The position numbers were made by a program, and so were the translations under genes. Shown piece by piece: positions 4,373-37,728 of a DNA stretch of 38,614 nt. Origin of the DNA: a virus; the IMG/VR virus record IMGVR_UViG_3300038416_000304, positions 1-38,614 of that record; one strand, given 5' to 3'. How positions within the stretch are numbered: position 1 is the stretch's first letter; every line of letters begins with the position of its first letter. The notes under the pieces were generated by a model. That model searched no databases, was not told the origin of the DNA, and saw nothing but the letters and a program-made list of their open reading frames with translations.

Positions 4373-4566
4373 AATCCTGGCTTTGTTGCACCCTTAATCC
4401 TTTGCTAGAGTGTATGTTATGTGGCTTAAAGTTATGCGATCACCACTCTACCCTAAAAGGATTTACTGAAGTATGGAATACTACAGGTTCTTGTACCAAA
4501 GTCTCTGTAGGAGAACCTGAGGGATGTCATATTTGGGGAAGTTCAATATTCTGCCGCAACGAATAA
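4342..4566 (+). CDS. Small Cys-rich protein of a CC-x-LN family, 74 aa
   Basis: A GTG start at 4342 is supported by AAGGA six bases upstream, inside the end of the preceding gene. The product has the pattern CC-x-L-N-x4-C-x2-C-x4-C-x2-H near residues 15-31, and the same pattern occurs in the 55-residue product at 11168, so the two are paralogues. Further cysteines follow. The spacing suggests a small zinc-binding fold. No named family is recognised. Confidence 0.55.
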   Translation: MPSSSSQPQIKSWLCCTLNPLLECMLCGLKLCDHHSTLKGFTEVWNTTGSCTKVSVGEPEGCHIWGSSIFCRNE

Positions 4567-4581
4567 CACGAATACTAGTAT

Positions 4582-4589
4582 TATATAAT
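4582..4589 (+). promoter_or_regulatory. TATATAAT box abutting the queE start
   Basis: TATATAAT ends exactly at the base before the queE ATG. There is no Shine-Dalgarno sequence between. It resembles a sigma-70 -10 element but lacks a clear -35; a transcript from it would be leaderless. It could also be plain AT-rich spacer. Confidence 0.25.
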
Positions 4590-5306
4590 ATGAAATTAAA
4601 AGTAAACGAAATTTATGGACCTGTTAAGCAGGGAGAAGGCAAATCCTCAGGACTAGAAGTTCTCTTCCTAAGACTATCAGGATGTAATCTAGCTTGTTCT
4701 TGGTGTGATACCCCTTATACGTGGAATTGGCAAGGCACCAAATTTGTTCATCCAGAAAAGTATGATCCTATGAAAGAAATTGTTTTTATGGATATCGACG
4801 AGATCAAGGCTGAATTAGATAAGCTTAATACTAAAGCTGTAGTAATCTCTGGAGGAGAACCCCTACTCCAACAGAAGCCTCTTTTCCCTTTAATAGAGGC
4901 TCTTAAATTAAATGATTATTGGGTAGAGATTGAAACAAATGGTACAATAGTTCCCGACCCCGAATTTCTTGATTTAGTAGATCAGATCAATTGCAGCCCT
5001 AAGTTATCTAATTCAGGCCCAGATAATCGACCTACGATGCGTGAGAGACCTGAAGCATTAACCGCTTTAGCCTCCAGTTCTAAAGTATCTTTTAAATGGG
5101 TAGTTACGTCAGATAAGGATTTAGAGGAAATAGAAACGCTTATCTCTAAATATGGTATGAAAGAGAATTACTTAATGCCTGAAGGTAAGACTCGAGTTGA
5201 GCAGTTAGCTCGACAGGACAAGGTTAAAAAGCTTTGTGAAGAAAAAGGATTCAAGTTTAGCCCCCGACTACATGTATTAGAGAATGACGTTAAAAGGCGG
5301 ATATAA
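4590..5306 (+). CDS. queE: 7-carboxy-7-deazaguanine synthase QueE (radical SAM)
   Basis: QueE rearranges 6-carboxy-tetrahydropterin to 7-carboxy-7-deazaguanine, the step before QueC. The 238-residue protein starts at the ATG at 4590; an upstream in-frame ATG at 4524 would add 22 residues that do not fit the family. The N-terminus has the family opening (VNEIYGPVKQGEG), then the iron-sulfur cluster motif CNLACSWC with Cys32, Cys36 and Cys39 (Cx3Cx2C), and a SGGEPLLQ segment for SAM binding. It ends by overlapping the M50 protease start (ATAATGA). Confidence 0.95.
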   Translation: MKLKVNEIYGPVKQGEGKSSGLEVLFLRLSGCNLACSWCDTPYTWNWQGTKFVHPEKYDPMKEIVFMDIDEIKAELDKLNTKAVVISGGEPLLQQKPLFPLIEALKLNDYWVEIETNGTIVPDPEFLDLVDQINCSPKLSNSGPDNRPTMRERPEALTALASSSKVSFKWVVTSDKDLEEIETLISKYGMKENYLMPEGKTRVEQLARQDKVKKLCEEKGFKFSPRLHVLENDVKRRI

Positions 5307-11338: not shown

Positions 11339-13789
11339 ATGTCCTTTGATTTAATTCCCAACCAGAACTGTACTTTATGTGGACTATGTAAGACTCGAAA
11401 AACTATCGTTAACGGAGTAGGACCTATTACTTCTAAGATCATGGTTATTCGTGAAGGACCTAATTTCGAAGAAGATAAGATGGGATCTCCTATGCTTGGA
11501 GATGCTGGCAGATTATGGAAACAGCTATTAAAACAAGCTGGAATAGATTATCGAGATATCTTCATGACTAATTTAACTCGATGTCATGGAGGAGTAATAG
11601 ATGCAAAGAAAGGTCCTAAAGATCCTTCCACTGAAGAAATAGTTGCTTGCTCCCCTTTCTTAGATGAAGAAATTAAGAGAATTCAGCCTGTAGTAATAGT
11701 ACCTGTAGGAAATATAGCTCTTAGATATTTCTTAGAAAGTAAAGCTGCTTCTATTATGTCTCACAGAGGTACTGAATTTTGGTCAGATAAATATAATTGC
11801 AAAATTATTCCTACTATACATCCTGCAGCCATCCTAAGAAATCCTCAGTATACATCTATTACTGTTCAGGATCTAGTAAGAATTAAAGAGTCCTCTAAGT
11901 ATACTGGATTAACTCCTAAGAGTACAGGTAACTATACTATTGTAGACACTCCTGAAAAAGTAGAGATGTTATTTAAAAATCTAACAGAAGCTAGTGAAAT
12001 AGCTATTGATATTGAGACGACCGATTTAAATCCCCGCAAGGGCGATATTTCTTGTATTGGATTTAGCTGGAAGGACAGAGAAGGATGGTGTCTCCCCTTA
12101 ATGAAGGCTGGAGGTAGCACCGATTCTTTTTGGGAATATTCAGTTACTATTGATTTATGGGAAAGAGTCAGAAAGATTTTAGAAGGCCCTTCTAAGAAGA
12201 TAGGACATAACTTTAAATTCGACCAGAAGTTTTTTATAATGAAAGGCATTAAATTAAACAATTTCTGGTTTGATACAATGTTAGCCCATCATCTTATTGA
12301 TGAGAACGCCGAAAATTTACACGGTCTAAAAGATTGTGCATGGGCTTATACTGATATGGGAGGCTACGATAAAGATTTAGATGATTGGTTTAAAGCTAAT
12401 AAACAATTTAAAGGTCAATATATTCAAGTACCTTTCGATATGCTTAATCTATATTGCGCAAAGGATGCTGACTGCACCTTTAGACTTTTTAAGATATTCG
12501 AGCCTCAGATTAACGCAGCTAATCTCACTAGACTCATGAGACAGGTAGTTTTACCTGCTAGAGATGTTTTAATGGATGCCGAGTTGTTAGGTATTCAGGC
12601 TGATCGAGATTATATAGAAAAACTGAGGGTAGAGTATTCTACAAAGCGAAGTTCTTTAGAACAGAGCATTTTTGGTTCAGTAGGACAGCCTTTTAATATC
12701 AATTCATCAAAGCAGTTACAAGATATTCTATTTACCAAATTAGGTTTCTCTCCCGCAGGTAAAACCAAGGGAGGGGGACTATCTACAGATAATAAAGCTA
12801 TAGAAATTATTTCAAAGCAGAATCCTAACCATCCTATACCTAAGCTTTTATTAGAATATAAGGACTGTCAAAAGATTTTAAGTACTTTTATCGAAGGGCT
12901 ATCAGAACATATTGATGTAGATGGTAGAGTACATAGCAACTATAAGCAGCACGGTACTACTACGGGAAGATTATCTTCTAGCGAACCTAACATGCAACAG
13001 ATTCCTAGAGAGTCTATTGTAAGAGGTATCTTTATATCTCGTCCAGGATATAAGTTAATTGAAGCCGACTATTCTTCGGCTGAATTTAGATGGTGGGGTG
13101 AATATAGTAGAGACCCTCAAATGGTAGAAGATTTAAAAAATAATGTAGATATTCACAGAATGACATACGCCCTATCTCACGGAGTAGACATTAGCAGTGT
13201 TACCGACACTCAGCGGCAGCAGGCTAAGGCGACTGTATTCGGTCTTATGTTCGGAAGAGGAACATGGTCTCTTGCCGAAGAGCTAGGTATTCCTGAATCA
13301 GACGCTAAAAAAATTGTAAGTATTTTCTTTGGTAGATATCCTCAGGCACAAGCCTGGTTAAAGCAACAAATCTTTATAGCAAAGAAGACTGGTCAGGTAG
13401 TTAATTATTTTGGAAGAATTCGCAGACTTCCAGGAATTAATAGCAATCAGGATATGGCTAGATCTGAAGCTGAAAGACAGTGTAAGAATTCTCCTATCCA
13501 AGGAGCTGCAGCAGACATGACTATGATAGCCTCTGTACGTATTAAAAAGGCTTTACTTAATGCAAAATTAACAGGTAGTTTAGTAATGACAGTTCACGAT
13601 TCTTTAGTGTATGAAGTACCTGAAAATGAAGTAGAGGCTACCTTTAGTATAGTTAAAGCTGAAGCTGAAAGACCTGTAGCAGGAGCGATAGTTCCTATGT
13701 TAGTAGATATCAAAGTAGGAACTCGATTAGGTTCTCTAAAGAAGATAAAGAATATATCAGAATTATCTTCTGAATTATGTATTAAATAA
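11339..13789 (+). CDS. polA: Family A DNA polymerase fused to an N-terminal UDG family 4-like domain
   Basis: Replicative phage polymerase of 816 residues. Residues 1-185 resemble iron-sulfur uracil-DNA glycosylases: Cys11, Cys14, Cys82 and Cys104 for a cluster, a motif-1 region (REGPN then GSPMLGDAGRLW) and motif-2 HPAAILRNP (His161). The 3'-5' exonuclease follows, with DIETT, HNFKFDQ and YCAKDAD, so proofreading looks intact. Polymerase motif A is EADYSSAEF; motif B is KATVFGLMFG, with Phe at the E. coli 762 position and Phe instead of Tyr at 766; motif C is VHDSL, with Ser where HDE is usual. UDG-PolA fusions are known in SPO1-like phages. Glycosylase activity is uncertain because motif 1 departs from the usual GEAPG. 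Confidence 0.93.
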   Translation: MSFDLIPNQNCTLCGLCKTRKTIVNGVGPITSKIMVIREGPNFEEDKMGSPMLGDAGRLWKQLLKQAGIDYRDIFMTNLTRCHGGVIDAKKGPKDPSTEEIVACSPFLDEEIKRIQPVVIVPVGNIALRYFLESKAASIMSHRGTEFWSDKYNCKIIPTIHPAAILRNPQYTSITVQDLVRIKESSKYTGLTPKSTGNYTIVDTPEKVEMLFKNLTEASEIAIDIETTDLNPRKGDISCIGFSWKDREGWCLPLMKAGGSTDSFWEYSVTIDLWERVRKILEGPSKKIGHNFKFDQKFFIMKGIKLNNFWFDTMLAHHLIDENAENLHGLKDCAWAYTDMGGYDKDLDDWFKANKQFKGQYIQVPFDMLNLYCAKDADCTFRLFKIFEPQINAANLTRLMRQVVLPARDVLMDAELLGIQADRDYIEKLRVEYSTKRSSLEQSIFGSVGQPFNINSSKQLQDILFTKLGFSPAGKTKGGGLSTDNKAIEIISKQNPNHPIPKLLLEYKDCQKILSTFIEGLSEHIDVDGRVHSNYKQHGTTTGRLSSSEPNMQQIPRESIVRGIFISRPGYKLIEADYSSAEFRWWGEYSRDPQMVEDLKNNVDIHRMTYALSHGVDISSVTDTQRQQAKATVFGLMFGRGTWSLAEELGIPESDAKKIVSIFFGRYPQAQAWLKQQIFIAKKTGQVVNYFGRIRRLPGINSNQDMARSEAERQCKNSPIQGAAADMTMIASVRIKKALLNAKLTGSLVMTVHDSLVYEVPENEVEATFSIVKAEAERPVAGAIVPMLVDIKVGTRLGSLKKIKNISELSSELCIK

Positions 13790-26034: not shown

Positions 26035-26892
26035 ATGAATAAGACTTCTCAAAAGGTTTCAGTTCTCAATAGAGAATACGAAGTTATACCTCGCTACGAT
26101 GAAAATTTATCTCTCTTAGGTTACCAAATAAGAGATGACGTAGGCACAGATGTATTCTTTTTAGAGACGACTAAAGGGCTTACGCAACCTGTTTTAGAAA
26201 ACTCTATCTACGAAAATATACTTAAATCGCATGCAGCCATTCATCCTGATCATGTTCCAGGAGGAATGCTTAATCTTTTTAAAGATATTACCAATAGATT
26301 AGATTCTTTTACGTCTATAGTTCCTTTTGAAGACTATTCTAGGATGTGTAGTTTTGTAGCTCAGGGATTTGGCTTAAGTATAGAAGAAGCCAGAGTAGCT
26401 GTATCTAATGTTATGAATGAACTAGGTCTATCTGCTGGCCCTTCCGCACAAGAAGAAGAGTGGCTTGGTCAGAAAAGGACCACTCCTTTCGGTATGCAAG
26501 ATCCTGGCTTCTTAGCTCAGCCTCTCTCTTATAGAGAGGTTAAACAACTCAAAACAGCTCGTACATTCGCTGAAGGTGATAAAGTTGAATTGAGATACGA
26601 AGACACTCGTGATTTAGCTACAAAAGGACATGTATTAAAAGTCAACAAGGATTCTACTTGTGATGTAATGTCTAGTAATGGAGAAGTGTACCAGAATATA
26701 GACCCTAGTAGACTTCATGAACCTTCTGCAGAGGGTGGTAGAATAGGGGGCGAAAATTATGGATATTTTGATAGCCCTCGTAATCTAGCTATGACTCCTA
26801 ATCTCAATGATAATCCAAGTGAGTACGCAGACGCAAAGGGACAAGAAGGCAAAACAGTATCGGATGCCCCTAACCCTTCCCTGAACGAATAA
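26035..26892 (+). CDS. Hypothetical protein with LSYRE motif and SH3-like domain, 285 aa
   Basis: It starts six bases after the 1535-aa gene. Residues 1-145 form an unknown domain with mixed strands and helices. The motif L164-S-Y-R-E168 separates it from an SH3-like barrel at ~175-230 (FAEGDKVELRYED to PSRLHEP), and the last 55 residues are a disordered Gly/Asn/Pro-rich tail. The SH3-like part resembles those in the 1535-aa and sigma-like proteins. It probably belongs with the two giant proteins; function unknown. Confidence 0.65.
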   Translation: MNKTSQKVSVLNREYEVIPRYDENLSLLGYQIRDDVGTDVFFLETTKGLTQPVLENSIYENILKSHAAIHPDHVPGGMLNLFKDITNRLDSFTSIVPFEDYSRMCSFVAQGFGLSIEEARVAVSNVMNELGLSAGPSAQEEEWLGQKRTTPFGMQDPGFLAQPLSYREVKQLKTARTFAEGDKVELRYEDTRDLATKGHVLKVNKDSTCDVMSSNGEVYQNIDPSRLHEPSAEGGRIGGENYGYFDSPRNLAMTPNLNDNPSEYADAKGQEGKTVSDAPNPSLNE

Positions 26893-28588: not shown

Positions 28589-29344
28589 ATGAAAAGGATT
28601 TTTAAAAAAGTTGTAAGCGTATTACTAGCAGTCGCATTAATGTTTACCATATACGCAAAACTATCTAGCCCTTATTTGATGATTAGTAGGGTAGAAGATG
28701 CTACGGTAGTTCTTAAGATTGTTAAACAAGTAGATGTTAATCTAGGACCTCAATTACCCCCTCTGTCTAAAAATCACAGGCGCAAGCACAAAAAACATTC
28801 ACAACTTAAGATAAATCAAACTTTTCTTTGTGCGGGATATATAGCTGATGATTATGGACATATTGTTACTGCAGGTCATTGTGCTACAGGGGGAAAAGAC
28901 GTAGTATCTATTACAGTATATCTTCATAATGGAAATAAAGGATATCTAGCCAGAGTTATTCTAGTTAAGCCCTTACTGGATATAGCCTTACTACAGGCAC
29001 CTCTTCCAAAAGGATTACCTTACCTTCAATCTAAAGAAGATTATCAGACTCCTGGAACTCACGTCTACGCTATTGGACATCCATTAGCAATACTCTACAG
29101 TGTAAGCGATGGTATTACTTCTAATTATATTGACCAAGAGCATGGTATTTTATTTATCCAATCGTCAGCTCCTATTAACCCGGGTAATAGTGGAGGACCT
29201 TTAGTTGATGATAATGGAGAAGTTGTAGGAGTTTGTAGTTTTGTAGTTATTGCTCCATGGGGAAGCCCTGGCGCAGGCTTAGGATTTTCAGTTCCCTCTC
29301 CTACAATTAACGTCGTGATGAGAGGGCAGTTAAACCATAACTAA
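28589..29344 (+). CDS. Membrane-anchored HtrA/DegS-like trypsin-fold serine protease
   Basis: The 251-residue product has a basic N-terminus and hydrophobic helix at ~9-24 (signal anchor or signal peptide), a His/Lys-rich linker at 60-72, and a chymotrypsin-fold domain with the full triad: His97 in VTAGHC, Asp131 in LLDIALLQ, Ser201 in NPGNSGGPL. The PGNSGGPL context is characteristic of HtrA/Deg proteases. No PDZ domain follows, unlike DegS or DegP. It should act outside the inner membrane. It lies three bases upstream of the 2201-aa gene. It could process phage or host envelope proteins. Confidence 0.9.
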   Translation: MKRIFKKVVSVLLAVALMFTIYAKLSSPYLMISRVEDATVVLKIVKQVDVNLGPQLPPLSKNHRRKHKKHSQLKINQTFLCAGYIADDYGHIVTAGHCATGGKDVVSITVYLHNGNKGYLARVILVKPLLDIALLQAPLPKGLPYLQSKEDYQTPGTHVYAIGHPLAILYSVSDGITSNYIDQEHGILFIQSSAPINPGNSGGPLVDDNGEVVGVCSFVVIAPWGSPGAGLGFSVPSPTINVVMRGQLNHN

Positions 29345-29346
29345 AT

Positions 29347-32300
29347 ATGTCCGTAGCCTTTTACCCTAAAGAGAAGACACTCCTCTTCGCCATTCGCGAT
29401 TTTGAACCTGCTACGCAGCGTTTGCTTATGAGCACTCTGGATGTAAATGGTCTTATTTTAGATTTGCAAGCTTTTAAGCTGGTTGTATCTCGCCATATGG
29501 ATGAACTTATTAAAGATCCTTCTGAGCTAGAAGCCGCCAGGCATATTGCTTATAAGGGCCAAGTTCTTCCCCTACTTAGAGATGAGTCCAACGCACTTAA
29601 CTTTCAATATAATACTTATAAAATATATTTGTCAGATCTAGGCAAAGAAGCCTCTAGACGTAAATTATGTATTGATTTTGATGGAACTCTTTCAAAGACA
29701 GTCGATCGTGATCTTGGAGCTCCTTTTGAAGGGGCTATAGAAAGTCTTCAAAAATTTAAAGATGCTGGTTTTAGAATTGTAATCTACTCATGTAGAGCTT
29801 TATCTGATGAAGGTCTCCGCCAGATTACTGAGTGGCTAGTCCAATATAAATGCCCCTATGATGAAATTTTTAGGGGTAAGCCAGACGCTGAATATTATAT
29901 CGATGATAAAGCTATTCCTTTCAAAGGAGATTGGAATAACGTTTATCAGGAAGTAGCTACTCGAATTAAAACCTCTTTTTCAGAATCTATAGTTATTCAT
30001 AGTATGTTTCAAGAGTTTGACAAAGAAAACCCTTTAATTTCTTTACTAGAAGAATATAAAAAGACTACTAATATTAAGTCGAAAGAATATGAAGATTTAA
30101 TTGGTAAATCTGAAAATGATGAACCTGTAGTAGTTACTTATAAAATAGACGGTGAAAATACTGCTTGGGAATATACAAATGGTAAAGCCACTCTAGTATC
30201 ACGAGAAGGAAGAGTTCGAAAGGATTTTCCGGTTACCAGCGATCTAGCTGCAGCATTATCTAAATATAAGTCAGCTGTAGGCTTTGGAGAATTATACGTT
30301 GTTGACAAAGAGGGTAATAGTTTACCCTACCCTAAAGCTATGTCTATCTTACGTAAACCTCTTTCCGGAGAAGAAGAAAGTAGGATTCGCTTAGCTATAT
30401 TTGATATAGATTCTTTAGACGGTAAAAAAATAGAGAGTCCTTATTGGGAAAGATTTCTATTAATTAAAGAACTATTTAGTGATCAGAAGCATATAGATCC
30501 TATCGTGGCTAAACAGGGGAATAGATCTACTATTCAAGAGATGTGGGAACAAGGAGTTCCAGAACATTATGAGGGATTAGTAATTCATTATAATGGAGTA
30601 GTTAAAGCCAAGCCTATTCTTTCACAAGATTTAGCCGTAGTATATGTAGAAAGATCAAAGAAGCATCCTGAAGCAATGGGGGCTCTAGGATTAGCCTACT
30701 TAGATTCTGAAGGACACTACAGATTTGCAGGTAAAGTAGGTACAGGTTTTTCTGACGTTGATCGAGATATGTGGATGAGTTATGCGTTAGAAAATAAGCT
30801 ACGAGAAGAGGATGGAACCATTTGGGTTCACCCTAATCGTGTTGTTGAGGTAGCTTCCAAGGAACTTAATCTTAGAGATACTCCTTTATATGATAAAGAC
30901 TTAAAAGAGATTGGAGACGCCCCATCAGCTATTGGTCGTGAGCCCCGTCTTCTTAGAATTCGCGAAGATAAAAAAGTAATACCTCAGGACCTTCGACTAG
31001 AACAGATCCCTTCGTTTGTTAAGGAAGCAGGTTTTCCTAAGCATCCAGATACACTCATGGTAGAACCTAATGAGTGGTATCCTAAAGGTCTTCGTGAAGA
31101 AGATGTTTGGAATTGGTATGATTCTGCTAAAGACAAGTTATTACTTGCTTTAAAGGGAACTCCTACTCTGATAGTAACCAAAACTGATGGTGAACATGTC
31201 CGTCGTAATGATGCTAAGACAGGTGAAAAGATCCAAATTAATACCATTGAAGATATTGACAAGCTTAATAATGGACGCAATTTAGAGTTTCATGATACTA
31301 TAGAAGATAACGAAACTAAGAAGATTTGGGTAGATCTTGACCCAAAAGAAAATTATTCTTGGCAAGATGTAAAGAAGGTCGCTGAGGAAATCAAAAATCT
31401 TTTATCTAAGCTACCTAATGTTGAACAGACAGAAGTTCGTTTTAGCGGAGGCAGAGGAATACATTGTATAGCCTGGCTTAAGAAATCTATTAATGTAGAT
31501 GCTGCCCGAGATATGTTAAATAATTTGCTCGAGGAAGAGATAGTTCCCAGATATAAAAATACTTCTACGCATATTTCAAAAGAGTCTGACCAAATGAGAT
31601 TAGATACCACTACTCTTCATGAAGATGGATCTTTAAGAGCTTTATGGTCTCTTAATGCAAAAACAGGTTTAGTATGTTCCCAAATAGATGACTTAGTTTC
31701 AGCAGAGAAGAAGGACTTTACTATTTCACATATGAGTAAAACTTCTAGCGGTTTTAAAGCTGATCCTAATTCCACTGAGCATGAAATTCGTTGGCGTCTC
31801 CGAGACCCTAAAGATTTTAAACAAGGATCTTTTCGTAGATGGAATGAATGGGCTGGAGTAATAGCCCCTAAAGGTATTCAATTTTTGGTAGGCGATTTAG
31901 AATCTGGTAAGAAAGCCCTACAAGCTATTAGATTTAATAAGACTGATTGGACAGAAGAAAAAGCTGGAACATTTTGGAAATCTGTACAAAGTAAAAAGGG
32001 ATTTGAAAGATCTTGGACATGGCCGAAAACAGGAGTATTATATGACGAACCAATTTCTCAATCTAGTGGCGATAACATACGGATGGATCAGCCCCTTAGC
32101 TCCAATAACCCATTATCTAGCCGTGAAAGCAAAGCTAACAGCCTACTTTCTATTAGGGAAGTAGAAGCAGGCTCCGGAGCCAAAGAGTTAGCTCTGGGGT
32201 TGGGATTAGCTATGGCCCCAGGTCTCCCCGTACACGCACCTAGCGCTCCTGTATCTCAAAATGTTCAGGTAGGATGGGAACACTTTGAAGAAGCTGCTAA

Positions 32301-35300
32301 AGCTGCCGCATCCAAACATGGAATTCCTGTAGACATGTTTGTAAGGCTACTACACACAGAGAATGCTTCGGGTAAACCTTGGGCAGTTAATCCGAATAGC
32401 GGAGCCGTAGGGCTTGCTCAATTTCTTCCAGAGACTGCTAAAGAAAGGGGAATTAATCCTCTTGACGCAGCAGAGAGTATTGAAGGAGCTGCAAAATATC
32501 TAACGGATCTTCATAAGGAATTTGGTAATTGGGAAGATGCAGTTAAAGCTTACAATTGGGGTCCAGGTAATGTAAAACAATGGTTAACTAAAGGTGGAGA
32601 GATTCCTGCTGAAACTCAGGAATATATTAAACAGATCGCTCCTCCTCCAAAGCAACATGTTAAGCATCACAAATATACAGAGCTTTCTGCTAAAGAAGTA
32701 AGCTCAGCATTCCTACCATCTCTCCCTGGAGTAGTATGGGAACTGCATGATGGACCAGATATGCAGCATAGCCCCAGTACTCCTCTAGAGATGCTACATC
32801 CTGTTAATGAATGGAACACCTACGATTCCTACACGGCTATCCACGACAAGAAGGACCCTACTGATCTACTTCACTTTTTATCTCTTACAGACATAGAAAA
32901 AATGCCTGATCAAGCTTCTGATGTTAAAGAAGAAGATGAATCGAATGAAGCGCAAGATAGCATTGAATCTGCGCTAGGTAAACGCGATATAGTAAAGCGA
33001 GCAGCTACTAATGAAGAACATATGGCCCATATCAAAGGCCTAGTTAGTCAGCGACAATTTGAAAAGGCAATCGACTATATTCTTAACAACAAGTTGAACG
33101 CCCCTAAACTTTTAAAGGACCTAGAAGATAGGTCTTCCAGAGCTCCTGTTTTAAACAAAGATCAAGCCCTTCTCCTGTTAGAAAAAGGGAGTCAGGGAGC
33201 TCAAAGTAATGCCGTAAAGTGGCTCGCTAAGAATAATAATATTAATGAACTAGCAGCCGTATTCCCTTTAGTTTCGTTTAACCCCTCTATCGCTAAAGAG
33301 ATTATAGACGTCTTTAAGAACATTAAGAACGTAATAGTTCTCAATAGATTGTTTACCAATACAAGTATCCCTGAAGGAATTCGCCGAGAAATAGTAGAAG
33401 CGCTTTTAGCCATAAATTATATTCCTATTGTTGACGAAGCTATTAAAGATGATTCTGAACAGATTAGATCTACGGGGTATAAGGCAGCTTCTCACCTTAA
33501 GGCTAAAGATCATTTGCTTGAAGAAGGTACCAAAGATCCTTCAGCTAAGATTCGTCGAGAGGTATACGGATACCTCTGGGAGGCTCAAACCCCTACAGCT
33601 ATAGATCTATTTTATAAAGGACAGACTGATGAAGATCCTTTGATACAAAAGTTTGTTAAAGAGAAGATAGGTATCTCTAAAAGTCATCCAAAAGAAGTTC
33701 CTACTCATGGAGACGAACTAACTCCAAAGATAATAGAAGAGGGTGTAGAGGATGCAAAGGAATATTTTAAGAAGCACCCCGAACTAGCAGAGAAGCTAAA
33801 GAAGGAACAGGAAGAGCGTGAAAAGCAGATACAGTATAATAAGAGTCTAACACCTATTAAAAATAAAAGAGAGAAAGAAATAGAAGAGCGTGAGAAAGCT
33901 AAAGCGTCCTCTCTTTCTTACAAAGAAATATTAAAGCAGGCGAACGACGCACCTAGAGAATTTTCGTGCGTGCTAGCCTCTCTGGGAGAGCCCCTAAAGA
34001 AGATTTTCAAAGATCTCGCGAACTCTATCCCTGAAGAAGAGATATATAATCCAAAGGAAGACCCTAAGTATGGTAGAGAAGAGAAGCCGCACGCTACTAT
34101 TTTGTTCGGCATCCACTCTCAGAATCCTAAGGAAGTAGAGTTTTTACTGTCTAGCAAGCCTAAGATAAGCGCAACCTTGGAAGATTTCAGCCTATTTGAG
34201 CCTGAAGACAAAGAGTACGACGTTCTAAAAGTATCCCTAGTATCAAAAGATCTAACTGAGCTGCACGATCTATTAAAGCAGAGTCTTGATAATACTGAGA
34301 GCTTTCCAGAGTACAACCCTCACTTAACCATAGCTTACCTTAAGAAGGGCAAAGGTAAAAATTATGTTGGTGACACATCCTGGGCTAATGTCAATAGATC
34401 TAAAGTGGTAGATAAAGAAGCTACCTTTGGAGAAGTTCAGTTTAGTGACAAGAATAGCAATAAGACTACGTTTCCGCTAAAAATAGCTTCTCTATCTAAA
34501 GAAGCCATTCAACCTCCTGCAGGTATAACTAAAGAACTAGAACCTGCTTTCGAATGGGGTGAAAGAGATGACGGCCTTCTAGCCAAAGATGTAAAACAGT
34601 ATTATGGACGTCCTAAATCAGAATGGCGTAATAATATGAATCTACTACCTGAGTTTCTTAAAAAGATGATAGAGGACGAAGATATGAGTAAAGAAGATCT
34701 AGTTCAACCTGTAAAGCTTGGAGCAGGTAATGTTTCTTTACCTCCAGGCACTCCTTTTAAATTAAAGCAAGATTTGGCACCTCTTCATAAAGGAACTCCT
34801 GGATATGTTCTTTGGCCCGATAAAGTACAGCCATATAAATATAATCCTACTGTTTATGTAGTCTGGCTTAAAGGAGTAGAATCTAATCCCGGAGATATTT
34901 TACTTACAGAAGATATGATGGAATTTGAAACCTCAAAAGTAACTCCTGAGGTAGAAGAATTAGGGCAATCAGTAGCTGATCAAATTAGAGAGGAGATAAA
35001 GAAAGAAAAAGAAGAAAATACCCCTCAGTCGCCTGCGGATGTTAAAGTAATGGATTCTAAGACTCTTAAGCGCAAGCGAGATGAGATGTTGGATAACATG
35101 TTGAAGTATCCTGAAGGATCTCCTGAGAGAAAGAAATGGGAAGAAAGACTTAAAGCGTTTGGAATGAAAATCTCTCTTTCTTACAGAGAAGTAACCCCTA
35201 TCAACTATGATACGGATCTAGTACAGGCGATACACAATCCTATTAGCGAACAGGCTAAGAGTGTATTAGATAGCATGTCAGACTCTCCAAGTTATATGGA

Positions 35301-35952
35301 ATTTATACTTCGTAGAGCTCGAGAGTTGAAAGATAACGGTCGAATATCTGATAGGCAGTTTAATGACTTTTCTCAAAAGTTACATGCTCTCGCTTTGAAC
35401 AAAGGAGTTATTAAACCGGGCCAAAAGATTATCGCTAGTATTCTTTCGTACAAAGAAGCAGCCTCAAATGTTTATGACGACTATGAACAGACTGCTATAG
35501 ACGATGATAGAAGATTAGAACGCACTGAGGACGATGAAGGCGTTCTAATTATGGACCGTGATTGGATAAGTGATACTCAAACTTTCCCTAGAGGGGTACC
35601 TTCTCCGCCCGCCAGATGGGTAGATCCTGATAGAGAGGAAGACGAAGTAGGAGGCACTAAGCTACGCAATGGCGTAACTTATTGGGAACCCTCTCCAGGT
35701 AATCTAGATGGTATGCCGGCAGGACAGTCTTTTTCTTCCCTTACAGCTGAAGTCAGCAATAGTGGAGCCAGAGTAACTTGTTCTTGGGATAATGAAGATT
35801 CTCTTTCTTTTTCAGAACAAGAAGTAACTTCTGCACTGATTAGTTTTATTAAAGCTAATCTACCCCATATTTTTGATAAATTTAAAAGCATTTCTTCAGA
35901 ACATGTAGACTTATCTACTAGAACTCTTGTATTAAAATTCCAGGGAGACTAA
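29347..35952 (+). CDS. 2201-aa fusion: HAD phosphatase, DNA ligase, LigD-type polymerase, lytic transglycosylase, HEAT-like, 2H phosphoesterase
   Basis: A single frame. Domains in order: HAD phosphatase (~105-215; CIDFDGT with Asp110, YYIDDKAI); ATP-dependent DNA ligase (~255-550; Lys266 in YKIDGEN, then GFGELYV, AIFDIDSLDG, EGLVIH, VVKAKP, LLRIREDK); LigD-type primase-polymerase (~560-745; VDLDP with Asp663/Asp665, SGGRGIH, then RLDTTT); a phage-type module with RWRLRDP and RFNKTDWTEE (~765-880); SLT lytic transglycosylase (~985-1095; Glu1005, GAVGLAQFLPETA, YNWGPGNV); HEAT-like helices (~1215-1430); 2H phosphoesterase (~1530-1700; His1582xThr1584, His1659xThr1661); SH3-like segment (~1770-1840); unknown C-terminus. 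LSYKE-type motifs fall at residues 934, 1113, 1523, 1716, 1944 and 2033. Repair plus peptidoglycan cutting suggests a virion protein delivered with the DNA. Confidence 0.85.
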   Translation: MSVAFYPKEKTLLFAIRDFEPATQRLLMSTLDVNGLILDLQAFKLVVSRHMDELIKDPSELEAARHIAYKGQVLPLLRDESNALNFQYNTYKIYLSDLGKEASRRKLCIDFDGTLSKTVDRDLGAPFEGAIESLQKFKDAGFRIVIYSCRALSDEGLRQITEWLVQYKCPYDEIFRGKPDAEYYIDDKAIPFKGDWNNVYQEVATRIKTSFSESIVIHSMFQEFDKENPLISLLEEYKKTTNIKSKEYEDLIGKSENDEPVVVTYKIDGENTAWEYTNGKATLVSREGRVRKDFPVTSDLAAALSKYKSAVGFGELYVVDKEGNSLPYPKAMSILRKPLSGEEESRIRLAIFDIDSLDGKKIESPYWERFLLIKELFSDQKHIDPIVAKQGNRSTIQEMWEQGVPEHYEGLVIHYNGVVKAKPILSQDLAVVYVERSKKHPEAMGALGLAYLDSEGHYRFAGKVGTGFSDVDRDMWMSYALENKLREEDGTIWVHPNRVVEVASKELNLRDTPLYDKDLKEIGDAPSAIGREPRLLRIREDKKVIPQDLRLEQIPSFVKEAGFPKHPDTLMVEPNEWYPKGLREEDVWNWYDSAKDKLLLALKGTPTLIVTKTDGEHVRRNDAKTGEKIQINTIEDIDKLNNGRNLEFHDTIEDNETKKIWVDLDPKENYSWQDVKKVAEEIKNLLSKLPNVEQTEVRFSGGRGIHCIAWLKKSINVDAARDMLNNLLEEEIVPRYKNTSTHISKESDQMRLDTTTLHEDGSLRALWSLNAKTGLVCSQIDDLVSAEKKDFTISHMSKTSSGFKADPNSTEHEIRWRLRDPKDFKQGSFRRWNEWAGVIAPKGIQFLVGDLESGKKALQAIRFNKTDWTEEKAGTFWKSVQSKKGFERSWTWPKTGVLYDEPISQSSGDNIRMDQPLSSNNPLSSRESKANSLLSIREVEAGSGAKELALGLGLAMAPGLPVHAPSAPVSQNVQVGWEHFEEAAKAAASKHGIPVDMFVRLLHTENASGKPWAVNPNSGAVGLAQFLPETAKERGINPLDAAESIEGAAKYLTDLHKEFGNWEDAVKAYNWGPGNVKQWLTKGGEIPAETQEYIKQIAPPPKQHVKHHKYTELSAKEVSSAFLPSLPGVVWELHDGPDMQHSPSTPLEMLHPVNEWNTYDSYTAIHDKKDPTDLLHFLSLTDIEKMPDQASDVKEEDESNEAQDSIESALGKRDIVKRAATNEEHMAHIKGLVSQRQFEKAIDYILNNKLNAPKLLKDLEDRSSRAPVLNKDQALLLLEKGSQGAQSNAVKWLAKNNNINELAAVFPLVSFNPSIAKEIIDVFKNIKNVIVLNRLFTNTSIPEGIRREIVEALLAINYIPIVDEAIKDDSEQIRSTGYKAASHLKAKDHLLEEGTKDPSAKIRREVYGYLWEAQTPTAIDLFYKGQTDEDPLIQKFVKEKIGISKSHPKEVPTHGDELTPKIIEEGVEDAKEYFKKHPELAEKLKKEQEEREKQIQYNKSLTPIKNKREKEIEEREKAKASSLSYKEILKQANDAPREFSCVLASLGEPLKKIFKDLANSIPEEEIYNPKEDPKYGREEKPHATILFGIHSQNPKEVEFLLSSKPKISATLEDFSLFEPEDKEYDVLKVSLVSKDLTELHDLLKQSLDNTESFPEYNPHLTIAYLKKGKGKNYVGDTSWANVNRSKVVDKEATFGEVQFSDKNSNKTTFPLKIASLSKEAIQPPAGITKELEPAFEWGERDDGLLAKDVKQYYGRPKSEWRNNMNLLPEFLKKMIEDEDMSKEDLVQPVKLGAGNVSLPPGTPFKLKQDLAPLHKGTPGYVLWPDKVQPYKYNPTVYVVWLKGVESNPGDILLTEDMMEFETSKVTPEVEELGQSVADQIREEIKKEKEENTPQSPADVKVMDSKTLKRKRDEMLDNMLKYPEGSPERKKWEERLKAFGMKISLSYREVTPINYDTDLVQAIHNPISEQAKSVLDSMSDSPSYMEFILRRARELKDNGRISDRQFNDFSQKLHALALNKGVIKPGQKIIASILSYKEAASNVYDDYEQTAIDDDRRLERTEDDEGVLIMDRDWISDTQTFPRGVPSPPARWVDPDREEDEVGGTKLRNGVTYWEPSPGNLDGMPAGQSFSSLTAEVSNSGARVTCSWDNEDSLSFSEQEVTSALISFIKANLPHIFDKFKSISSEHVDLSTRTLVLKFQGD
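32146..35457 (+). repeat. Dispersed LS[Y/I/A][K/R]E linker motif in the 2201-aa protein
   Basis: Six occurrences, given by DNA position of the core: 32146-32160 (LSIRE, followed by VEAG), 32683-32697 (LSAKE, then VSSA), 33913-33927 (LSYKE, then ILKQA), 34492-34503 (LSKE, then AIQPP; one residue shorter), 35176-35190 (LSYRE, then VTP) and 35443-35457 (LSYKE, then AAS). Each lies between recognisable domains. The same motif is at 26524-26538 (LSYRE) and 36631-36645 (LSKKE, then LLKKA) in neighbouring genes. Confidence 0.7.
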
Positions 35953-36626
35953 TGAAAAAATCTAAGTCGAAACGATCAAATGGGGCGTACCAGATTGTAC
36001 CAAAGAGTCAGGCACAAGAAGATTATATGGAAGCCATTGATTCATTTGATGTAGTTTTTGGCAGGGGTAGTGCAGGTAGTGGAAAGACATATCTTGCCGT
36101 AGCAGGAGCTATTAGAGCTCTACAGGCTGGAGAAGTCGATAGGATTATCATAACTAGACCTATCGTAGAGGCGGGAGAAAAGCTAGGATTTCTTCCAGGT
36201 ACCTTTCAGGAAAAAGTTGACCCATACCTTAGACCTATCTATGACGCATTTTTTGAATTAATAGAACCTGAAGAGTTCAAAACATGGCAAGCCCAAGGTA
36301 TAATTGAGATTGCCCCCCTCGCTTATATTAGAGGTCGCACATTTACCAGATGTTTTATGATTCTAGATGAAGCGCAGAATACTACTCCTATGCAAATGCG
36401 AACGTTTCTAACGCGTATGGGACAAGAATCAAAGATGGTAGTTAATGGAGATCCTACACAGATAGATTTACCCGACCACGTAGATTCGGGTCTAGAAGAC
36501 GCCCTGCATATTCTAAAAGACGTAGAAGGTGTTGCTGTTATTGAATTTAGTCCTGTTGACATTGTTAGACATGAAGTAGTAAGACGCATTGTAACTGCTT
36601 ACGAGAAAGATGATGCACAACCATAA
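35952..36626 (+). CDS. phoH: PhoH-like P-loop ATPase
   Basis: PhoH-family ATPases are frequent in large phages; they are proposed RNA-related helicase or nuclease partners, but their phage role is unsettled. The 224-residue product has Walker A GSAGSGKT at 39-46, ITRPIVEAGEKLGFLPG (a family hallmark), Walker B FMILDEAQN, and NGDPTQIDLP. It shares its first base with the stop of the 2201-aa gene. Length is near the short PhoH type without a KH or PIN domain. Confidence 0.95.
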   Translation: MKKSKSKRSNGAYQIVPKSQAQEDYMEAIDSFDVVFGRGSAGSGKTYLAVAGAIRALQAGEVDRIIITRPIVEAGEKLGFLPGTFQEKVDPYLRPIYDAFFELIEPEEFKTWQAQGIIEIAPLAYIRGRTFTRCFMILDEAQNTTPMQMRTFLTRMGQESKMVVNGDPTQIDLPDHVDSGLEDALHILKDVEGVAVIEFSPVDIVRHEVVRRIVTAYEKDDAQP

Positions 36627-37728
36627 TCCTTTATCTAAAAAAGAACTTTTAAAGAAAGCCGACTCTCCTGAGACAGGTGCTGATGACTTTTCTTATGAAG
36701 AACTTGGACAACCTCCTACAGCTGCTCCAAAAGAGCAAACCCCTCCTTCTGTAAAAGAAGAACCAAAAAAAGAAGAGCCTAAGGCTGAAGAACCTAAGAA
36801 AGAGGAAGAGACTAAGAAGGGTAGTCATCCTACCATAGATGAAATTAATAAAGATTGGGGAAAATATTGGACCTCTGATACATCCGGGTTAGAAGCTGCT
36901 ATGGGTAAGGCCTTCAAGGATGGTAAAGCTACATGCAACGCAAATGTATCTTTCAATGGAGGAGATTGGGCAGCTCAAGGTGTTGTTGAAATAGTTTTGA
37001 CCCGAGATGCTAACAAATTATGGGTTGTAATTAATCCTCAAGGTTTATTAAATATGATGGGGAATGTTGCTGATAAGTATGCCTCAGCCAAAGAAACTAC
37101 TACCCACGCTTTCCAACCTCTTAGATTTCTTCCACGCATTTTGGAACTTCTAGCTAAAAAAGTTAGTTCAGAACTAGAGTACAAACTTAAAGGTATGGGA
37201 TTAAAGGGGTCTGACGTATTAGATTTTAAGATGGGTGATGCAGCAGCTTTTAAAGAAGCAATCGAAACCTCAAAGAATTCTGTAAACTCCGTTGCTACTG
37301 AACACGCTTCAACATATCAAGGAGCTGCCCCTAAGGAAAAGAAAGAAAAGAAGCCTAAGAAACTTGATACGGATACACTATTAGAAAAGTTCTTTGATTC
37401 TTTACCAGCTTCTGATTGGGAAAGTCACGAAAATAAGTCTTTAGGAATAAGAACTAAGACTACATCTTTACCACCCGAAAAGTATTCCCAAGTCAGAGAG
37501 ATATTAGAGGGACTACCTATTCCTATGGGAAAAGCAGGGCCTTATCAATTTGAAAGAAGACAAGATGGTAATCTTCTTGTAATTGACACTTCTGCTTATG
37601 CTCATGCAGGATGGACAGGTCCTGAATTAACTAAGCTGGCGGAGCTGGTAGGTAACGACCTGAGTAGAAGCGCTAGCGCTTCTATTGCGGATCTTATAGC
37701 TCGTTTCCCTTCTTCAAAAGAAGAATAA
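36610..37728 (+). CDS. Hypothetical protein with Lys/Glu/Pro-rich linker and LSKKE motif, 372 aa
   Basis: It overlaps the 3' end of phoH by 17 bases. The N-terminus reads NPLSKKELLKKAD, which matches the LSYKEILKQAND stretch of the 2201-aa protein; FSYEEL follows at 27-32. Residues ~35-75 are a disordered repeat of PKKEE-like units. Two globular parts follow (~85-225 and ~255-365) separated by another Lys-rich linker (KEKKEKKPKK). Neither is recognised. The linker style and motif place it with the giant proteins. Confidence 0.65.
   Translation: MMHNHNPLSKKELLKKADSPETGADDFSYEELGQPPTAAPKEQTPPSVKEEPKKEEPKAEEPKKEEETKKGSHPTIDEINKDWGKYWTSDTSGLEAAMGKAFKDGKATCNANVSFNGGDWAAQGVVEIVLTRDANKLWVVINPQGLLNMMGNVADKYASAKETTTHAFQPLRFLPRILELLAKKVSSELEYKLKGMGLKGSDVLDFKMGDAAAFKEAIETSKNSVNSVATEHASTYQGAAPKEKKEKKPKKLDTDTLLEKFFDSLPASDWESHENKSLGIRTKTTSLPPEKYSQVREILEGLPIPMGKAGPYQFERRQDGNLLVIDTSAYAHAGWTGPELTKLAELVGNDLSRSASASIADLIARFPSSKEE

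Follow-up and report, generated by a model that had tools for sequence, protein, structure and literature searches.

Exchangeable enzyme modules and recurring joints in a giant phage protein that may be head-loaded cargo

The DNA analysed here, called the window, is the 38.6-kb IMG/VR virus record IMGVR_UViG_3300038416_000304 (38,614 nt), and the subject of this work is a polyvalent megaprotein of 2201 aa encoded in one frame at 29347..35952 on the plus strand (the window protein). Comparison with relatives reveals that whole modules of this protein are gained or lost, with right-hand edges that lie on short recurring joints. Giant proteins whose parts are swapped at such joints suggest, short of proof, cargo that the phage takes into its head and cuts into pieces. 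Our favoured reading, to which we give a probability of about 0.5, is a capsid-loaded polyvalent cargo polyprotein of large tailed phages, perhaps cut at its joints, with a ligase-polymerase as an exchangeable cassette; both the packaging in the capsid and the cutting are steps that we infer.

Enzyme modules of the window protein

The frame opens with ATG and runs for 2201 codons without an internal stop, as a preliminary description of this DNA had read it. The same description had named HAD phosphatase, ATP-dependent ligase, LigD-type polymerase, SLT transglycosylase and 2H phosphoesterase domains, all of which are confirmed by matches in Pfam, PHROGs and the Protein Data Bank (PDB) and by catalytic motifs of all five enzyme types. 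To these can be added a conserved N-terminal module, a HEAT-like module and a recurring joint motif. All module and joint coordinates below are on the plus strand, and similarities are given relative to G003, a related phage record discussed in the next section (G labels denote relatives' records and L labels loci from relatives).

The conserved N-terminal module (aa 1-100, 29347..29646) has homology in G003 and ends in a joint-like DLGKEAS. The wider region, aa 1-221, is 72% alike in G003, and the module is weakly matched in the record G008 (E 8e-4). Next comes the HAD phosphatase-like module (aa 105-207, 29659..29967), with the motif DFDGT at aa 110; aa 103-206 match phrog_1238 in PHROGs (E 1.2e-18) and PDB entry 1xpj (E 7.9e-8), Pfam HAD models stay below cut-off on the segment alone, and the module is matched in L103, L104, L105, L106, L107 and L108. 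The ATP-dependent DNA ligase (aa 259-542, 30121..30972) consists of a nucleotidyltransferase and an OB fold with the motifs KIDG (aa 266), EGLVI (aa 409) and KAK (aa 420). Scanned alone, the segment matches DNA_ligase_A_M (PF01068, E 2.8e-11) and PF04679 (E 7.6e-10); in the whole protein, DNA_ligase_A_C covers aa 443-542 above its curated cut-off (E 7.5e-9). In the PDB, 2cfm, a thermostable archaeal DNA ligase, is found at E 9.3e-8 along with other DNA ligases.

The LigD-type primase-polymerase (AEP) domain occupies aa 618-797 (31198..31737) within a fuller segment of about aa 557-910, and carries WVDLDP (aa 661), SGGRGIH (aa 700) and MRLD (aa 750). LigD_Prim-Pol (PF21686) is matched at E 9.3e-13 in the whole protein, above the curated cut-off, and at 4.9e-14 on the segment. 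A PDB sequence search with the segment gave no meaningful match. An AlphaFold model built from one sequence failed, with a pLDDT of 42, so the assignment to the AEP fold rests on profiles. The NCBIfam model for DNA ligase D (TIGR02776) matches in two stretches at E 3.6e-22, with 78.9 bits against a cut-off of 373.2.

Further along, the SLT lytic transglycosylase (aa 984-1084, 32296..32598) matches PF01464 above its curated cut-off (E 3.6e-16) and soluble lytic transglycosylases in the PDB (1e-4), its catalytic Glu lying within HTENASG at aa 1003. It is followed by a conserved module with HEAT-like repeats (aa 1113-1508, 32683..33870), 81% alike in G003, on which HEAT_2 scores 7.1e-5, below its cut-off. 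The 2H phosphoesterase (aa 1571-1669, 34057..34353) is Acb1-like and has both of its motifs, HATI at aa 1582 and HLTI at aa 1659. The profile 2_5_RNA_ligase2 (PF13563) matches it at E 2.7e-7 in the whole protein, above the curated cut-off, and at 3.5e-9 on the segment; the Acb1 profile PF23474 gives 2e-7 (31.3 bits) on the segment and 26.6 bits against a cut-off of 27 in the whole protein, and the match to the PDB Acb1 structure 9q2g is weak (E 0.029). The rest of the chain comprises an unknown module partly common to G003 and G008 (aa 1716-1943, 34492..35175), a small module (aa 1944-2037, 35176..35457) and a conserved C-terminal module with G003 homology (aa 2038-2201, 35458..35949); aa 2011-2201 are 73% alike in G003. 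Base composition of the modules is uninformative on their origin.

A shorter copy of the gene in a relative

G003, the closest relative, of 116,673 bases, was reached via the family A DNA polymerase of the window (88% identity) and is collinear with the window. Its counterpart of the window protein has 954 aa and is flanked likewise by an HtrA-like protease and PhoH. According to BLAST, this copy retains window aa 1-221, 1113-1508, 1712-1926 and 2011-2201 and is without the ligase-polymerase, SLT, 2H and the small module (aa 1944-2033). The small module exists in G003 as a separate 105-aa open reading frame (ORF) on the other strand (96072-96389; 48% to window aa 1955-2038), and a separate ligase gene is encoded elsewhere in that genome. 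In a MAFFT alignment the G003 homology restarts at about aa 1113, 1715 and 2036, each time on a joint of the window protein; BLAST carries the third restart back to aa 2011. Left edges are vaguer: homology stops at about aa 1508 with a joint at 1523, and there is no joint at aa 221. Opposite the window joints LSSRE, LSIRE and LSAKE, G003 has LSCRE and LSARE; opposite LSYKE and LSKEA it has SLDKEA, and PKTAAS replaces the last joint.

The preliminary description had proposed a single machine that cuts the cell wall and then mends the incoming genome. One fixed machine of this kind becomes less likely, as ligase-polymerase, SLT and 2H are separate cassettes that are all absent from the G003 copy, and the family's mix of unrelated enzyme activities would fit a role in early takeover and counter-defence no less well than a single repair pathway. 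An RNA repair machine made up of the ligase and the 2H enzyme was also considered and is disfavoured, because the matches of the ligase are to DNA ligases and each part forms a cassette independent of the other.

Joints and module edges

The joint motif LS(x)[KR]E, a pattern picked after its sighting in the window protein, occurs seven times there against 0.40 expected, with a maximum of four in 5000 shuffles. Joints bracket SLT (aa 934 and 1113), 2H (aa 1523 and 1716) and the small module (aa 1944 and 2033). From the N-terminal side they are LSSRE (32113..32127), LSIRE(V) before SLT (32146..32160), LSAKE(V) after SLT (32683..32697), LSYKE(I) before 2H (33913..33927), LSKEA after 2H (34492..34506), LSYRE(V) (35176..35190) and LSYKEA (35443..35460); G003 homology restarts at LSAKE, at LSKEA and, by MAFFT, at LSYKEA. 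A weaker joint-like FVKEAG lies between ligase and polymerase (31015..31032) and is outside the seven. Codons vary among several of the copies, which favours selection at the protein level. The motif is also found nine times in the other 145 ORFs of G003 (2.18 expected). Joints lie near the C-terminus of G003 96072-96389 and the N-terminus of G003 94251-95381. At the five places inspected, in four huge uncultured phages and one Maribacter phage, each 2H homologue stands alone as a gene of 172-209 aa with no evident joint before it, so the joint is probably no ancient part of the 2H domain.

Joints exceed chance and tend to mark module edges. Sites of the form KxA[SN] or [LIFV]xKxA are found no more than 12 aa away from BLAST-defined edges in 41 of 180 cases versus 19.1 (0/2000 circular shifts), and in 9 of 33 versus 3.0 for the window protein and G003 (8/2000 shifts). 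For Glu-type sites the corresponding figures are 21 of 180 versus 9.0 (0/2000) and 11 of 33 versus 4.8 (18/2000). The controls ExA, DxL and AxK have no comparable excess near edges (AxK 18 versus 12.5, 121/2000). In six polyproteins of the clade KxA occurs 87 times versus 50.5 and ranks seventh among 1200 gapped pairs, the higher-ranked pairs probably stemming from a repeated module. Within the window protein itself Glu-type sites are enriched (8 versus 1.76; 0/500) and [KR]xA is not (18 versus 19.7).

The family in related phages

A search with the G003 major capsid protein yielded 55 relatives' loci, and these relatives are uncultivated tailed phages with related capsid genes. When the window protein was searched in 17 capsid-related records, nine matched, with frames of 807-2693 aa. 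In seven other records, two of them near-duplicates, a single frame (1281-2693 aa) encodes both HAD and 2H. By Pfam, the domains seen among the relatives' proteins include a weak nucleotidyltransferase-like N-terminus, a weak HAD-like domain and, in L103-L108, 2H above cut-off. Other domains vary: ART-PolyVal in L103 (2.1e-6, just below cut-off), a low-molecular-weight (LMW) phosphatase in L105 (3.7e-23), a HEAT-like match below cut-off in L110, HExxH in L109, L112 and L113, and an SprT-like match just below cut-off in L113. The 2693-aa megaprotein of L105 (L105:2262-10343, minus strand) also contains, by eye, several modules of about 130 aa with W-x-x-P-x-G-K.

The G008 protein aligns weakly with the window N-terminal part, the ligase C-terminal OB part and two core segments, and has no ligase domain by Pfam. 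The G021 protein aligns with the LigD-type polymerase of the window at 21%, with no counterpart of WVDLDP visible by eye. At L110:4916-11305 (minus strand), aa 133-219 are 30% alike to the OB part of the window ligase, again with no Pfam ligase catalytic domain. Comparable proteins occur in two named records. The isolate Tunturiibacter phage Tunturi_5 has a 1362-aa protein (ORF321) with 2H, GNAT and ART-PolyVal (6e-48); the main text of the paper on this phage nowhere uses the terms mass spectrometry, proteome or SDS-PAGE. Virus Rctr197k, known as a partial genome recovered from an enrichment, has a 2175-aa frame with a HAD match immediately after an annotated terminase.

The LigD-type polymerase is present in only one of 21 records, and Ku in none of these 21 virus records, all possibly fragments, which agrees with the earlier remark that no Ku is visible; Ku for the ligase-polymerase may be supplied by the host. 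The polymerase segment gave no tblastn match in 50,697 phage records, and aa 1-575 matched 19 of the phage records, every one within the HAD part. Since the polymerase occurs in one of 21 records, Ku in none and no phage match was obtained, the ligase-polymerase would be an optional cassette. Contig scans, which require near-exact peptides and which distant relatives escape, gave no second copy of the ligase-polymerase cassette among viral contigs (whole protein, ligase-polymerase, PhoH and core module as queries) and no relative in two scans of genome contigs. No second contig with this exact gene was found; of two fragmentary contigs with an identical polymerase gene, one had no match and the other a separate HAD-like gene.

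Gene position also bears on the carriage of the protein. Seven of the nine records examined have head genes on the strand of the megaprotein gene, about 6-16 kb downstream of it: the terminase follows after 5.9-6.3 kb in G010, G011, G013 and G016 (G010 and G011 appear to be one virus), the portal after 7.3 kb (G020) and 15.4 kb (G014), and the head protease after about 16 kb in G017. In the remaining two the distance is more than 100 kb (G008) and nearly 90 kb (G003, a linear contig).

The head maturation protease

In 32 relatives where it was located, a protein of 829-1417 aa is encoded two genes upstream of the capsid gene and combines a head maturation protease domain with a long scaffold-like remainder. 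All four head proteases tested match phrog_18299 (E 1.4e-11 to 4.1e-16). A model of the protease domain from 24 sequences has a pLDDT of 83, and its only two PDB hits below E 0.001 are to T4 gp21 (5jbl; 1.8e-4 and 2.7e-4, probability 1.00), with TM scores of 0.64-0.65 on the target and 0.43-0.44 on the query. Judged by this model, the lineage's head protease, found in relatives, appears to be gp21-type. As PMC9026906 describes them, T4 gp21 cleaves after L/I-X-E and the phiKZ enzyme after S/A-X-E.

The scaffold part has joint-like motifs of its own, VLTKEAAG in L032 and ILSKEAAG in G003, whose copy is cut by the contig start; these two records are the nearest to the window, and the L032 capsid protein is 99% identical to that of G003. 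Of 26 non-redundant scaffolds, 23 have a [KR]-x-[AG] site after the protease domain and all 26 have one within the last 65 residues; the pattern is short enough that some of these sites may be due to chance. The protease-scaffold protein of L033 (L033:5131-9384), 1417 aa long, contains an intein-like insert of about 400 aa after SMGC, starting FKAGTPV and ending VHNC. In L085 (G017 at about 114.1-115.9 kb and 120.2-122.2 kb) the capsid and head protease genes are each in two pieces at least about 1 kb apart, an arrangement that introns or homing elements within the genes would explain.

Weighing the readings

We hypothesise that the head protease recognises the joints. On the favoured reading the megaprotein would be loaded into the prohead together with the scaffold, and the gp21-type head maturation protease would cut at least some joints, after the Glu of LS(x)[KR]E. 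The released enzymes would then enter the cell alongside the DNA, where SLT could help to open the wall, the ligase-polymerase could fill and seal nicks, gaps or cuts that packaging, ejection or nucleases of the host leave in the incoming genome, and the 2H enzyme could mend the ends of RNA or break down defence signals. The carrier would consist of the N-terminal, HEAT-like and C-terminal modules, with the ligase-polymerase as an optional cassette. A bolder form, which we put forward only tentatively, is a programmable delivery polyprotein in which the head protease cuts repeated Glu joints, lineages swap cassettes at these joints, and the window version delivers a LigD-type ligase-polymerase.

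Several results weigh against cutting, packaging or both. Scanning the polyproteins with a profile derived from 49 scaffold sites showed no enrichment: 10 proteins gave 16 hits, about 0.9 per 1000 aa versus 0.94 in 129 control proteins; only L106 exceeds its shuffles, and the window protein has one hit. At the equivalent scaffold position L033, L034 and L037 have LYVAAA, IYAEAS and IYTEAA, and many joints of the clade read K-x-A on visual inspection and lack the Glu that gp21-type enzymes are expected to need. Among the other proteins of G003, a broad joint pattern shows no enrichment (8 versus 6.28); a narrower one, chosen afterwards, does (5 versus 0.945; 0/200), and one of these five is in a UvsW-like helicase, no obvious virion protein. 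The DNA of three joint copies is alike to 94% or more across 16 nt, so recombination at a DNA repeat may have had a part in the joints. In the window, G003 and G008 the megaprotein gene does not adjoin head genes, and by Pfam the window protein contains no metallopeptidase.

A packaged polyvalent protein that is never cut is possible but on balance doubtful. Its joints would be flexible linkers with helix caps that keep the enzymes tethered, and L-S-x-x-E-[AVI] does resemble a helix N-cap; the failure of the scaffold-derived profile to be enriched in polyproteins points the same way. The N4 virion RNA polymerase offers a model, being packaged unprocessed according to PMC5512222. Against tethering, the joints are near-identical between unrelated modules, are found near the ends of other ORFs too and coincide with module gain and loss. 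Rather unlikely is an unpackaged cytoplasmic multi-enzyme, made during infection to mend phage DNA and RNA. The window gene adjoins PhoH downstream of replication and recombination genes, and HAD, ligase and 2H would recall nucleic-acid repair sets, but SLT would have no obvious cytoplasmic use, the gene is upstream of head genes in seven of nine relatives, and G003 already has a separate ligase gene.

That the polyprotein is cut by the linked HtrA/trypsin-like protease rather than by the head protease seems improbable. A trypsin-like gene adjoins the megaprotein gene or lies within about 0.5 kb of it in the window (28589-29344), G003, L105, L107, L108, L110 and L111 (L107 and L111 are near-duplicates; Pfam also identifies the gene in L105, L107 and L108), and the joints contain K or R. 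However, signal- or lipoprotein-like N-termini (window, L105, L107 and L108, by eye) suggest an envelope location, away from assembly, and tblastn did not find the gene in six of 11 loci (L103, L104, L106, L109, L112 and L113). Finally, the long frame could be an artefact in which assembly or sequencing joined separate genes, and in favour of this only one contig was found with this exact gene; such an artefact is very improbable and largely refuted by the relatives, given 6.6 kb without a stop and the seven other records that join HAD and 2H in one frame. The favoured reading, a head-loaded cargo polyprotein, includes virion carriage as the preliminary description had proposed it; gene order in seven of nine relatives and the predicted packaging of the polyvalent class make carriage likelier, and both fall short of proof.

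Gene neighbourhood in the window

Directly upstream of the megaprotein gene is the HtrA/trypsin-like protease gene with a hydrophobic N-terminus (28589..29344, plus strand; PF13365, 3.3e-22), and the conserved downstream neighbour is a PhoH-like ATPase (35952..36626, plus strand; PF02562, 3.8e-87). Two further plus-strand genes have joint-like sites, a 285-aa protein with LSYREV at aa 164 (26035..26892) and a 372-aa protein with LSKKE at aa 8 (36610..37728). Other window genes include a UvsX-like recombinase, SbcC-like and phosphoesterase genes, a family A DNA polymerase and a weak sigma-factor match; no head genes were seen within the window. The family A polymerase (11339-13789) has a uracil-DNA-glycosylase-like domain fused at its N-terminus, and a queuosine-type pair of QueC-like and QueE-like genes (210-893 and 4524-5306) suggests deazaguanine modification. 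In G003, a 1578-aa ORF without a Pfam match (82879-87615; L013:2879-7615) stands between genes that adjoin in the window.

Relation to known systems

The class to which the protein belongs is known as polyvalent proteins, described by Iyer et al. 2017 as a predicted packaged class (PMC5512222), in which a single phage polypeptide unites many disparate enzyme domains, 2H and lysozyme-type domains among them. The window protein likewise unites unrelated enzymatic domains, at least two, in a single chain, with 2H and SLT typical of the class; ART-PolyVal is found in L103 and Tunturi_5, and some relatives have ART-PolyVal, GNAT or HExxH. As to nearness to late virion genes, seven of nine examined lie upstream of head genes, G003 and G008 do not, and the window shows no head genes. 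The window protein differs in its DNA ligase, LigD-type polymerase and recurring joints, and in having no metallopeptidase, the domain type that PMC5512222 names as the processing solution. In that paper's account, Primpol and pol-beta NTase occur in members from conjugative elements only, and in its main text the word ligase (three occurrences in one passage) refers to RNA ligases. Relative to this source, three things appear new: a phage member that has a DNA ligase and a LigD-type polymerase, module exchange at joints that recur, and a gp21-type protease beside the family. The class had been described before; the domain set, of which the preliminary description knew no described example, was not found in literature searches by titles and abstract openings among the matches listed.

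Like LigD, the window protein has a ligase and then a primase-polymerase in one chain with intact motifs, which is the order of Bacillus LigD; unlike LigD, it scores below the family cut-off, was found without Ku and sits inside a 2201-aa phage protein. If carried in the virion, its ligase-polymerase would be the first such end-processing and sealing enzyme that we know of. The 2H module shares its family and both HxT motifs with the anti-CBASS nuclease Acb1, but the generic 2H profile outscores that of Acb1 on the segment and signal cleavage is only putative. T4 provides the closest parallel for processing, since its internal proteins are loaded into the prohead with a capsid-targeting sequence and cut by gp21 after the Glu of L/I-X-E (PMC9026906), and a gp21-type protease also appears in the window protein's lineage. 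The T4 internal proteins, in contrast, are separate with removable propeptides, whereas here there is one chain with putative internal sites, and the window joint motif is not exactly L/I-X-E.

Implications

If the favoured reading is true, a modular cargo chain would be unpacked by a maturation protease like that of T4, and the joint would serve as a rule for predicting phage-delivered cargo proteins. DNA ligation and gap filling would join the functions of phage entry, where they might counter defences that cut DNA. Whether or not the protein is cut or packaged, this clade illustrates how giant multi-enzyme phage proteins are built through module exchange.

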